Below, one piece after another: positions 1 to 5,031 of a stretch of DNA of 5,162 nucleotides. The position numbers and the translations under genes are program-made. How positions within the stretch are numbered: position 1 is the first letter of the stretch; each line of letters begins with the position of its first letter. Below the pieces are notes generated by a model, which worked only from the letters and a program-made list of their open reading frames with translations, had not been told where the DNA came from and made no database searches. The DNA is from Deltaproteobacteria bacterium (GTDB lineage: Bacteria; JAUYMQ01). Location of the stretch: positions 1 to 5,162 of the forward strand of contig JAUYMQ010000170.1 in NCBI GenBank assembly GCA_030698575.1, in the 5' to 3' direction.

Positions 1-887
1 ACCAACTTCCCCTGCACGAGCCATCCGCCCACGAGCAGACCATCTCGCTCCTTGACGGCCTCCTTCGCCATCTTGTCCAGCGCCTCATACTCTCGGTGCG
101 GGGCTTCCAACTCCGCCCGGCGGTCCAGGCGCGCCTCGAGCTCGCCATCCTCCACGAGCGTGAGCCCGTGGTACTCGGCCGGGGGGGCGCAGAGGCGCCC
201 GAACGCCCAACAGCGCCGGCAGACGGTCGGATCCCGGTGGTACTCGGGCAGGGCGCTCTCTTCCGGATCGCCGTTACGAATGCGATCCACCGCGTCCACA
301 GCCATCTCACACTGACGCAGGATCGTTTCCGTGGCGTCCAGATCCAGCGTGACCGGCAGGAGTTTCCAGTGGCCCATGCAGTCGTCGAGGAGGAAGAACC
401 CCTCCTCGAAGTTGTTGGCGTAGAGATACGCCTGAAGCTGCCGCGGATACTTGGCCGCCCACGTGAACGCCTCGAAGTCCTCGACGGTGTGGATACGCCG
501 GTAGACCAGCGGGTCGAGGCTCTTGCACTCGAACGGGTATTCCTGCCGCTCATGCGTCACGAATCCGTCAAGGCGTCCGCGGAGCACCACTCGGCCTGCC
601 TTGTCCTTGATCTCGAAGGGCTTCCGGTCCACCCGCACGCTGAATCCGAGCGCGCCAAGTTCGTTGACCACCAGATCCTCGATCGTGGTGCCCCGCTCGA
701 AGCGGGCCTTGAGATCGGCGCCGAAGAGGGGCCGCTCCTTCCAGTGGAGGATGGCGAGCGCGGTCTCGCGGCCACACGGCCCGAGGTCGGAGGCGATGGG
801 GTTGTTGCGTGGGTACGGGGAAATGCGGGCCTCAAGGGCCTTCTGTCGCCTGTCAGTGATCGCAGCGCACAGCTCGGCGGCGGTCAT
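1..887 (-). CDS. Cas4/AddB-like PD-(D/E)XK exonuclease with Fe-S cysteines (C-terminus beyond window)
   Basis: Probable DNA end-processing nuclease of a phage recombination module; 295 residues are visible and the frame is still open at base 1. The core shows a GRLDGF motif (D107) followed by FECKS (E120, K122), the D...ExK signature of RecB/Cas4-type PD-(D/E)XK nucleases, then Q150-x3-Y154 (QLQAY), matching their QxxxY motif. One cysteine lies before the core (C38 in GPCGRE) and three after it (C223-x2-C226-x6-C233), the arrangement that binds a 4Fe-4S cluster in Cas4 and AddB. After the cluster comes a charged helical tail and a GGWLVQGK segment, as in many phage exonucleases. Where such nucleases often have His in the first helix, this one has RGTTIED (E70). 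The start overlaps the stop of the coiled-coil gene (ATGA) and has only a weak ribosome site, so translation is probably coupled. The fold is well supported; cluster binding and polarity are inferred. Confidence 0.88.
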   Translation of the reverse strand, partial: MTAAELCAAITDRRQKALEARISPYPRNNPIASDLGPCGRETALAILHWKERPLFGADLKARFERGTTIEDLVVNELGALGFSVRVDRKPFEIKDKAGRVVLRGRLDGFVTHERQEYPFECKSLDPLVYRRIHTVEDFEAFTWAAKYPRQLQAYLYANNFEEGFFLLDDCMGHWKLLPVTLDLDATETILRQCEMAVDAVDRIRNGDPEESALPEYHRDPTVCRRCWAFGRLCAPPAEYHGLTLVEDGELEARLDRRAELEAPHREYEALDKMAKEAVKERDGLLVGGWLVQGKL

Positions 888-1573
888 GTCCGCACCGACA
901 GGCTTTCTTCCTGATACACCTCGATCCCGGGGATCTCGCGCACGCCGGCCATGATCGCCTTGCGGACGCAGGCTTCGTTCAGCTCCAGATACTCGCGGGG
1001 GATCGCCTCCGGGTCCAGAACTTTGAATGTCCACGTCTTGCGGACGCTGCTCGTGCCGGCGGCCGTCCTCACGACCCGCGCTGGGGCCTGCGCCTGAACC
1101 TCGGCTATCCTCGCCCCCTGCTCACGTGCAACCGCCGTGTCGAGCAGGCTCTCGGCGATGGCCGCTTTCCCGGCCGCCTCCGCGCGCTCGGCCTCTCGGA
1201 GCATCGCTTCCGCCTCCAGCCGCTGTCGTTCAGCCGCCGCCGTCGCTTCTGCCGCGAGTCGGATCTCCTCGCGTCGCCGGGCGAGAAGCTGCCCGTCGAG
1301 ATGTTTGTCCGCCTCGACGAATGGCGCGAGCACCTCGCGGAAAAGGTCGTTGATCGCCTTGACGTGATCATTGAGCGGCTTCACGAGGCTGACGCGCTTG
1401 GCTTCAGCGTCCTTCTGGATCTTCCGGCACGCGCCGAGGAGAGCCGTCGCTGTCGTCTTGGTCTCTTCCGAGGAGACGCGCAACGAGAGAGCCTCGGCCT
1501 TCACCATGGCCCCACGAGTGCGGCAATCGAGGACCATCGGTTCCTGCTCTGGAATGACGAGGGTCACGCTCAT
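884..1573 (-). CDS. Phage recombination-module coiled-coil protein, unknown function (229 aa)
   Basis: Function unknown. Residues 1-80 are a mixed N-terminal region containing KPLNDHVKAINDLF (about 65-78). Residues 83-160 are rich in Ala, Glu and Arg and read as a long coiled coil. A C-terminal domain (about 165-229) starts with VRKTWTFKVLDPEAIP and contains AGVREIPGIEVYQEES. From memory, proteins of this layout recur next to exonuclease and annealing-protein genes in phages, but I cannot name a family with certainty. The start is set by AAGGAGG seven bases upstream and by an ATGA overlap with the homing endonuclease gene; a longer in-frame reading to 1633 lacks this support. It overlaps the nuclease gene by four bases. 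Likely roles, all inferred, are a structural or regulatory partner of the nuclease or annealing protein. Confidence 0.85.
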   Translation of the reverse strand: MSVTLVIPEQEPMVLDCRTRGAMVKAEALSLRVSSEETKTTATALLGACRKIQKDAEAKRVSLVKPLNDHVKAINDLFREVLAPFVEADKHLDGQLLARRREEIRLAAEATAAAERQRLEAEAMLREAERAEAAGKAAIAESLLDTAVAREQGARIAEVQAQAPARVVRTAAGTSSVRKTWTFKVLDPEAIPREYLELNEACVRKAIMAGVREIPGIEVYQEESLSVRT

Positions 1574-1580
1574 GCGGCGC
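1566..1580. repeat. Right-hand (3') copy of short direct repeat bounding the homing endonuclease gene
   Basis: The plus strand reads acgctcatgcggcgc. It matches 2009-2024 (acgctcatgccggcgc) except for one missing c. It contains the stop/start overlap between the endonuclease and the coiled-coil gene. Confidence 0.7.
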
Positions 1581-2016
1581 CCTCCTTGCGTGCCCGATAG
1601 CGAACCGATGCTTGATTCCGACAGAATCTGCATCCCCGGTTCCCAGTCTTCGGGTCACGATATGTGTTGACTTCAGAGAAAGGGTGGCCACTGATGCAGG
1701 CAATTCGATAGCGAGGCCAGACATAACGACTCTTCCAGAACCGCAATGTCTGCCCAGCTTGAAGCTGGCGCCGACGGGACAGCAAGGAGTAGAGAGTCAT
1801 GGCGATCCCTGCTGCCCGAGGCCCCCAAGCCACCCATTCGTAGATCGTCTGGTGTTTCTTGGGTTTGATCACGCCACCCACTAGCGACTGTAGCCGTTCC
1901 AATGGCTCGCGATTGACTTGGGACGCCATTACGCGCATCTGGCGGCTGTTGTAGAAACAGCCTTCGCCCTCAAGGAACCCGGCGATCCAATAAAGATCGT
2001 GAGCCCGAACGCTCAT
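1570..2016 (-). CDS. LAGLIDADG homing endonuclease with C-terminal zinc-finger-like motif (148 aa)
   Basis: Predicted free-standing homing endonuclease. Residues 9-19 read YWIAGFLEGEG, a single LAGLIDADG motif in which E18 takes the place of the usual catalytic Asp; one motif means it would cut as a homodimer. The middle (about 25-95) has the beta-rich spacing and final helix of a single LAGLIDADG domain. The C-terminus has C107-x3-H111 and C129-x2-C132 around HPFSEVNTY and GNRGCRFCRN, a small zinc-binding module like those at the ends of phage HNH and LAGLIDADG nucleases, perhaps for DNA recognition. The gene is inserted between the annealing-protein and coiled-coil genes with ATGA overlaps at both ends and is bounded by a short direct repeat. 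Its GC is about 58% over 1621-2040, below its distant neighbours, which fits horizontal transfer. No intron or intein signs are seen. Activity is not shown; the protein could have lost cleavage. Confidence 0.87.
   Translation of the reverse strand: MSVRAHDLYWIAGFLEGEGCFYNSRQMRVMASQVNREPLERLQSLVGGVIKPKKHQTIYEWVAWGPRAAGIAMTLYSLLSRRRQLQAGQTLRFWKSRYVWPRYRIACISGHPFSEVNTYRDPKTGNRGCRFCRNQASVRYRARKEGAA
1581..1587 (-). promoter_or_regulatory. Strong ribosome-binding site deciding the coiled-coil gene start
   Basis: The minus strand reads AAGGAGG here, seven bases before the ATG at 1573. It lies inside the last codons of the homing endonuclease gene (Lys-Glu-Gly). It favours the ATG at 1573 over an in-frame start 60 bases further upstream. 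Confidence 0.85.
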
Positions 2017-2024
2017 GCCGGCGC
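2009..2024. repeat. Left-hand (5') copy of short direct repeat bounding the homing endonuclease gene
   Basis: The plus strand reads acgctcatgccggcgc, the partner of 1566-1580. It contains the stop of the annealing-protein gene and the start of the endonuclease gene. Because of the repeat, both the endonuclease and the coiled-coil protein begin Met-Ser-Val. Confidence 0.7.
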
Positions 2025-3939: not shown

Positions 3940-4160
3940 GGCGTCACCACGAGGCGGACGGGCGCGGGCAGGGGCTTCGCCTGCCGCCGCCACGTCACCC
4001 GCCGCCCGCCCGTGTAGCCGCGGCGGCTCTCGCGTCGGCCAGGGTCGGCCCGGCGATCCTGGATCACGCAGGCCATCCCCGCCTCGACCTGCGCCGCGAG
4101 GGCCGCGTAGGTGGCGGAGCCGGGGCGATCGGCAGGGAACACCAGCGTGAGGGGGCTCAT
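3936..4160 (-). CDS. Small basic protein, unknown (74 aa)
   Basis: Not recognised. The N-terminal part ([20 protein letters not shown], then a short helix to about residue 33) is neutral. The middle is Arg-rich ([20 protein letters not shown]) and the end is Pro-rich, so the protein is basic and may touch nucleic acid. The start is chosen for the ATGA overlap with the pentapeptide-repeat gene; the longer in-frame reading to 4301 runs antiparallel in sense to nothing but overlaps that gene by over 140 bases and is rejected. No good ribosome site is seen, so expression probably depends on coupling. It is the least certain of the internal small genes, supported mainly by exact overlaps at both ends. 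Confidence 0.65.
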
Positions 4161-4927
4161 GTCAATCCGATCGTCGCGAGGTCCTTCTCGCCGACGATGC
4201 GGCAGCGCCGCACGCGGAACTTGCCGTCCGTCGCGGTTGGAATCGCGGCGATGTCGGCGGCAACGAACTCGGCGATCAGGATGCGGTAGCCGTCTCGCCA
4301 CTCACGCATACACCAGTCGAGCGTGGCGAGATTGATGCCGGCCGCGCACTGGAGCGTGGCGTCGGTGTTGGCGTTGGATACGGAGTACTCCTCGCCAATC
4401 GCGTAGGTGATGCCGCCGTTGAATGGGCCAACGCCGTCCCCCGTGACCAGCTTGTAGGCCCAGATTGGGCCGGGCTGGTCCATCAGCATCAGGAGCGGCG
4501 TGACGCGATAGGCGTTGAGATTCTTGGCGTCCCTGAGGTCGGCGTCCCTGAGGTCGGCGCCCCCGAGGTTGGCGTCCCTGAGGTCGGCGCCCCTGAGGTC
4601 GGCGTCCCTGAGGTCGGCGCCCCCGAGGTCGGCGCCCCTGAGGTTGGCGTCCCTGAGGTCGGCGCCCCTGAGGTCGGCGTCCCTGAGGTCGGCGCCCCTG
4701 AGGTCGGCGTCCCTGAGGTCGGCGTCCCTGAGGTCGGCGCCCCTGAGGTCGGCGCCCCCGAGGTTGGCGTCCCTGAGGTCGGCGCCCCTGAGGTCGGCGT
4801 CCCTGAGGTCGGCGCCCCCGAGGTCGGCGGGAGATTTCACGGCGGCTTCGAGCGCGATTTTCCACGAACCGACGTCGGCCGCGAAGAGCACCGACGCGTC
4901 GTATCTCGACCTGATTTCGATCTTCAC
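4157..4927 (-). CDS. Pentapeptide-repeat protein with conserved-looking C-terminal domain (256 aa)
   Basis: Residues 1-33 are a short N-terminal domain ([15 protein letters not shown]...). Residues 34-133 are 20 uninterrupted pentapeptides of form A-(D/N)-L-(R/G)-(D/G), which should fold as a right-handed quadrilateral beta-helix of about five coils. AKNLNAYRV then leads to a C-terminal domain (about 140-256) with [46 protein letters not shown] and [19 protein letters not shown] recall this C-terminal type in other phage-linked pentapeptide proteins but know no function. Gyrase protection (as in Qnr and MfpA) is known for some pentapeptide proteins, yet those repeats are more varied and lack this domain. 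The GTG start has AGGAGG five bases upstream and overlaps the previous stop (GTGA); an in-frame start at 5014 is rejected because it would run through the 35-aa gene. Confidence 0.9.
4526..4825 (-). repeat. Twenty tandem 15-bp units coding pentapeptides
   Basis: Twenty perfect-length 15-base units with no indels. In the coding strand only three sites vary, all A/G: Asp/Asn, Arg/Gly and Asp/Gly. Five unit types occur: DLRD (10), DLRG (5), DLGG (2), NLGG (2) and NLRG (1). The five-unit block at 4556-4630 is repeated exactly at 4751-4825; with flanking matches the identity spans 4546-4634 and 4741-4829. Confidence 0.95.
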
Positions 4928-5031
4928 CGTTTCCTCCTCGCCTGCCGATCCATGAGCCACACGATCGCCGCCAGCGTGACGAACCAGCCCGCGATGGCGC
5001 CCGTGGCGAACCACACGAGGCGCAGGGTCAC
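4924..5031 (-). CDS. Single-pass membrane micro-protein (35 aa)
   Basis: A micro-protein of 35 aa starting with GTG. Residues about 5-27 are one hydrophobic segment ([20 protein letters not shown]), followed by the basic tail DRQARRKR. By the positive-inside rule the C-terminus would be cytoplasmic. It has GTGA overlaps at both ends: with the 28-aa gene upstream and the pentapeptide gene downstream. A GTG one codon earlier (5034) is an alternative start. The ribosome site is weak, so coupling is likely. No known holin or spanin motif is visible; it could be a small membrane anchor or toxin-like protein, but nothing proves a role. Confidence 0.65.
4933..4938 (-). promoter_or_regulatory. Ribosome-binding site deciding the GTG start of the pentapeptide gene
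   Basis: The minus strand reads AGGAGG, five bases before the GTG at 4927. It is coded within the Arg-Arg-Lys end of the 35-aa gene. Confidence 0.85.

Follow-up and report, generated by a model that had tools for sequence, protein, structure and literature searches.

A freestanding LAGLIDADG homing endonuclease gene, probably acquired within a phage recombination operon, whose two ends may resemble each other mainly by convergence

The window analyzed here, which spans all of contig C293 (5,162 bases) in a draft genome of 4.1 Mb, carries on its minus strand a set of genes that reads as a phage operon, and within it a freestanding homing endonuclease gene that was probably acquired, the resemblance between its two ends being best explained, in our judgment, mainly by convergence on one form of gene junction. 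The endonuclease gene lies between the genes for an annealing protein (SSAP) and a coiled-coil protein, which are followed by a Cas4-like gene running to the contig end (Table 1). Seven ATGA gene overlaps were counted in the 5.2-kb operon, so that clean overlaps at both ends of the endonuclease gene follow a local rule. Promoter- and terminator-like sites in the window occurred only at chance level. The minus strand also encodes a pentapeptide-repeat protein (4157-4946), in which a long pentapeptide run is specified by nearly perfectly repeated DNA at about 4530-4830. Possibly the contig is phage DNA that was binned into the genome of an uncultured prokaryote (G000).

Table 1. Features of the recombination operon and of the two repeat copies (positions in the window)
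Feature	Position	Strand	Remarks
Annealing-protein (SSAP) gene, 265 aa	2013-2810	-	Rad52-like fold (predicted); 3' end GAA GCG CCG GCA TGA
Repeat copy 1, GCGCCGGCATGAGCGT	2009-2024	-	SSAP stop / endonuclease start; ATGA overlap 2016-2013
Freestanding LAGLIDADG endonuclease gene, 148 aa	1570-2016	-	I-CreI-like single-motif domain, residues 1-99; zinc ribbon, residues ~104-147 (both predicted)
AAGGAGG Shine-Dalgarno sequence of the coiled-coil gene	1581-1587	-	inside endonuclease codons Lys-Glu-Gly
Repeat copy 2, GCGCCGCATGAGCGT	1566-1580	-	endonuclease stop / coiled-coil start; ATGA overlap 1573-1570
Coiled-coil recombination accessory gene, 229 aa	884-1573	-	phrog_10477 'exonuclease'; Mu Gam-like match, weak
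Cas4-like exonuclease gene	3-887	-	incomplete at contig edge; ATGA-coupled to coiled-coil gene; phrog_1990, E 1.5e-12

The assignment of the 148-aa protein to the LAGLIDADG homing endonucleases, as in the original prediction, is supported by motif, fold, and family match. The LAGLIDADG-type motif WIAGFLEGEG occupies residues 10-19, and its acids Glu16 and Glu18 are invariant among 46 aligned sequences. The protein matches PHROG 5046 (E 2.8e-14) and, under the gathering score, Pfam PF14528 (E 0.0036), and a profile search with it retrieves LAGLIDADG structures. Its AlphaFold model (pLDDT 95) was matched by Foldseek to I-MsoI and I-CreI (E about 1e-5), and VIA alignment superposed residues 1-99 on I-CvuI, I-CreI, and I-MsoI with Z scores of about 11-14.5, the best being I-CvuI (Z 14.5, rmsd 2.1 over 97 residues). 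The C terminus matches PHROG 928 and, in HNH endonucleases of phages (PHROG 1492 and 826), their zinc-ribbon tails. From these models, the protein appears to combine an I-CreI-type single-motif domain with a C-terminal zinc ribbon and would be expected to act as a homodimer. The same ribbon (GH...C-x2-C) occurs on both LAGLIDADG and HNH phage endonucleases (window 1570-1705, minus strand; L072 499-1005; L013 5567-6028; L008 1962-2495), a distribution that suggests domain exchange between nuclease classes.

Because the GC3 of the endonuclease gene is 0.63 (overall GC 57.3%) against 0.80-0.86 in its three neighbors, its composition marks it as foreign and suggests a newcomer. No Rfam match to an intron RNA was found in the window, and the SSAP and coiled-coil reading frames on either side are both complete; the gene is thus of the ordinary freestanding type, outside any intron or intein, and neither neighbor is broken, as had been claimed. 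The claim that the insert supplies a strong ribosome-binding site for the downstream gene also held, since AAGGAGG lies at 1587-1581, 7 nt ahead of the coiled-coil ATG at 1573-1571. As a rule for the endonuclease family, such a 3' Shine-Dalgarno sequence with ATGA overlap was rejected by a survey in which HNH zinc-ribbon genes were ATGA-coupled in 27/85 cases versus 258/1408 controls (p 0.004, under a slightly laxer criterion) and LAGLIDADG relatives in only 8/76; the frequency of Shine-Dalgarno sequences at these overlaps (13/35) was no different from that in controls (83/258).

The flanking proteins are consistent with a recombination module. The annealing protein (P0001) has no convincing match of its own in Pfam or PHROG, and Foldseek alone returned nothing significant; its family alignment comprises 47 sequences and its AlphaFold model has a pLDDT of 88.6. 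The nine best VIA alignments were all to RAD52, with Z scores of 7.4-7.7, close to background, mostly over ~135 residues at an rmsd of 5.5. The predicted Rad52-like identity is suggestive and agrees with the usual place of the gene, almost all relatives having it next to the gene for a Cas4-like nuclease or a different exonuclease. Homologues of the coiled-coil protein were found in the recombination modules of five loci (L002, L040, L042, L050, and L074).

A profile search with the annealing protein gave 56 viral loci, and L072, the closest relative (57% identity in the annealing protein and 68% in the Cas4-like product), came to light in a further search with Cas4. Scanning viral contigs or plasmids with the single protein, or genome contigs with a profile or the single protein, yielded no close relative of the annealing protein. 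Nor was a close relative with the same annealing/coiled-coil pair minus the endonuclease found in a search set in which the genome of the window is the sole one of its phylum. In most relatives the Cas4-like gene directly follows the annealing gene. In L072 the two are joined straight to each other, with neither endonuclease nor coiled-coil gene between them; the junction is GGAGCCCCAGCATGAGCGTCAAG, and the annealing gene ends GCCCCAGCATGAGCGTC at the Cas4 start. The LAGLIDADG gene is absent from the matching module in L012, L072, L074, and others, none of which is a close allele. L074 has the order annealing protein, coiled-coil protein, an apparent DnaQ-like exonuclease (named by eye from sequence), and Cas4, and its annealing/coil junction, GTGCGGGCATGAGTGCC, is a single clean ATGA. 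Such a junction between the two gene families therefore does occur, although L074 is distant (27% and 25% identity).

Endonuclease genes of other kinds or positions accompany several of these modules. HNH endonucleases lie downstream of the annealing gene in L013 and L040, and endonucleases lie upstream of it in L072 and L074. Five endonuclease ORFs, a small number, were detected across 59 annealing-gene loci; every one sits near the annealing gene (L013, L040, L072, and L074), whose vicinity is a possible hot spot for endonucleases. L040, with an HNH gene at 4881-5483, and L041/L042 form a natural occupied/empty pair just past the annealing gene, the sole such pair found; here the C terminus of the annealing protein and the N terminus of the next gene product are both remodeled, and the HNH gene is not flanked by a clean direct repeat. 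L067 (3024-5038) shows the reversed order, with the Cas4-like gene ahead of an annealing gene whose product bears a long extra C-terminal tail, and its contig carries a LAGLIDADG gene elsewhere (L192).

The original prediction had centered on a direct repeat at the two ends of the endonuclease gene, and this is present: the plus strand reads ACGCTCATGCCGGCGC at 2009-2024 and ACGCTCATGCGGCGC at 1566-1580, the copies differ by one base, and they coincide with the two ATGA overlaps. Joining the flanks in silico gave ...GCG CCG GCA TGA / ATG AGC GTG ACC, with the clean ATGA foreseen for a deletion. The exact core of the repeat, however, is only the 10 bp GCATGAGCGT. Exact 10-mer direct repeats in the SSAP-endonuclease-coil region are not in excess (8 versus 4.6 expected, P = 0.16), so the existence of the repeat means little and only its position is informative. 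Of the 148 ATGA overlaps taken as controls from contigs with more than 60% GC, 45 (~30%) carried ATGAGC, 15 ATGAGCG, and 2 GCATGAGCGT, and just ~1-2% started with ATGAGCGT; at unrelated ATGA junctions, therefore, ATGAGC and GCATGAGC are common, whereas the full 10-mer is rare, so that the second ground for refutation named with the original prediction, recurrence of the repeat at many unrelated junctions, holds in part. An exact run of at least 10 was shared by 0.92% of random control junction pairs, 2 of 94 neighboring pairs were as alike by exact run, and a match of at least 15 with one indel was reached by 0.064% of pairs (7/10,878, a few of them probably homologous), all of these rates being approximate because the control genes were called with a simple home-made caller. 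The similarity is unusual for a pair chosen in advance, but both the pair and the indel were picked post hoc. Given the rarity of the 15-base match (0.06%) and of ATGAGCGT in controls, a shared origin of the two copies is possible. The 10-mer was also considered as a general junction signal in the assembly and rejected, since most of the 20 other GCATGAGCGT sites inspected in the 4.1 Mb are without long open frames on both sides and only a few could be junctions.

Sequence comparison with the relatives of each gene shows that the parts of the repeat occur natively, save the start of the endonuclease itself. On the annealing side, GCGCCGGCATGA is the SSAP's own APA* ending, for which L072 has GCCCCAGCATGA; the L072 SSAP stop carries GCATGAGCGTC with no endonuclease there, and thus a single GCATGAGCGT, but joined to another gene (Cas4). 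The endonuclease gene starts with ATGAGCGT and ends with GCCGCATGAGCGT. Its side of the repeat, GCGCCGCATGA, corresponds to an ...AA* ending, and zinc-ribbon endonucleases at unrelated sites end likewise, with GAGCCGCATGAGC in L072/L076 and GCGCCGCATGAGA in L087; their shared terminal sequence is GCCGCATGA, and an RRRAA* terminus recurs in those of L072 and L087. The coil-side start is native in L074 (ATGAGTGCC), coiled-coil proteins begin Met-Ser in L040, L042, and L074 (MSL in the first two, at 4-base overlaps with another upstream gene), and coiled-coil genes elsewhere start ATGAGC or ATGAGT at ATGA overlaps. The flanks of the repeat are therefore also present in unlinked relatives of each gene. 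The least explained part is the endonuclease start, where ATGAGCGT recurs as at the coiled-coil start and relatives differ (for example, MTV in L157). The extension of identity into the upstream GCGCCG, which had been offered as an argument for insertion, is accounted for by the APA* terminus that the SSAP shares with L072 and by the usual RRRAA* zinc-ribbon terminus, and the view of the repeat as a record of a duplication or short-homology event found no support, each flank being known from its own gene's relatives. Insertion into an existing four-base overlap, on the other hand, is plausible given the single ATGA of L074 and the GCATGAGCGTC of L072, with the distance of L074 as a reservation.

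Some of these observations would fit an ancestral junction GCGCCGGCATGAGCGTGACC into which the endonuclease gene came through recombination at short homology or through duplication of the junction, so that each end kept one copy; the corresponding empty junction would be one exact GCGCCG(G)CATGAGCGT. The L072 and L074 junctions make such an empty site realistic, and the rare 15-base match and the ATGAGCGT start of the endonuclease gene lean the same way, but the native occurrence of each upstream flank, the frequency of ATGAGC at unrelated junctions, the lack of excess of 10-mer repeats, and the remodeled, repeat-free flanks of the L040/L042 pair speak against it, and we consider this origin rather unlikely. 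That the repeat is a scar left by duplication or by recombination at short homology is possible but unproven. The more general proposition that recombination through GCATGAGCGT brought the gene into a single ATGA overlap, with overlaps of coupled operons serving as generic landing sites where both couplings are rebuilt, is likewise tentative and seems unlikely.

The joining of SSAP to Cas4 in L072, with neither gene between, and in most relatives could instead mean that the endonuclease and coiled-coil genes were acquired jointly into an L072-like SSAP/Cas4 junction, rather than the endonuclease alone into an SSAP/coil junction. We regard this as doubtful, because foreign codon usage is confined to the endonuclease gene while the GC3 of the coiled-coil gene (0.80) matches the neighbors, the SSAP-coil order exists in L074, and the coil/Cas4 junction, GACATGACC, is unlike the one between SSAP and endonuclease. 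Loss of endonuclease activity, with the protein kept as a DNA binder or passenger, might be supposed from its single short domain and because freestanding endonucleases can decay, but the open frame, the invariance of both motif glutamates, and the confident I-CreI-like fold prediction make it improbable.

In the reading we favor, acquisition of the endonuclease gene between the annealing-protein and coiled-coil genes would have placed it in a series of genes linked by ATGA stop/start overlaps, where it is probably coupled in translation at both ends. Ribosomes ending the annealing protein would reinitiate on the endonuclease, whose upstream Shine-Dalgarno sequence is weak, and the strong one held in its last codons would keep the coiled-coil gene translated. 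The gene would spread by intronless homing, its product cutting a genome devoid of it at a site within the neighboring recombination genes that need not be the junction itself, after which the gene would be copied in via flanking homology. The two ends would have become alike mainly by convergence on an Ala-stop / Met-Ser-Val junction in a GC-rich, ATGA-coupled operon. A selfish endonuclease may thus occupy a tightly coupled operon cheaply, by overlapping the preceding gene and holding the ribosome-binding site of the next, and short repeats at ATGA junctions of GC-rich phages are weak evidence for a mechanism of insertion. Were overlaps indeed landing sites, this would help to explain how freestanding endonucleases enter new operons.

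The gene fits what is known of freestanding phage endonucleases, whose cleavage sites lie hundreds to thousands of bp away from the endonuclease gene and which move by repair through flanking homology (PMC2988022). In T4, 5 of the 12 freestanding endonuclease ORFs overlap the upstream ORF, and the mobE/nrdA overlap, UAAUGA, suggests translational coupling (PMC2988022). Like mobE and the other T4 examples, the window gene is intergenic, overlaps the upstream stop with its start, and leaves the flanking genes intact, but the T4 enzymes are GIY-YIG or HNH rather than LAGLIDADG, and the window gene additionally overlaps its downstream neighbor, whose Shine-Dalgarno sequence it contains. I-CreI, I-CvuI, and I-MsoI share with the window enzyme the predicted fold of residues 1-99, the single motif, and the two conserved acids; they are intron-encoded, whereas the window enzyme is encoded by a freestanding gene, has a shorter core, and carries a zinc ribbon at its C terminus. 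That ribbon, GHxxxxxNTY...CRxC, is shared with Mycobacterium phage LittleE gp14 and with the zinc-ribbon endonucleases of PHROG 1492 and 826. The latter carry an HNH nuclease domain, unlike the window enzyme, whereas gp14 also has a LAGLIDADG-type core but is encoded, unlike the window gene, on the opposite strand within a split capsid gene that carries a group I intron annotation.
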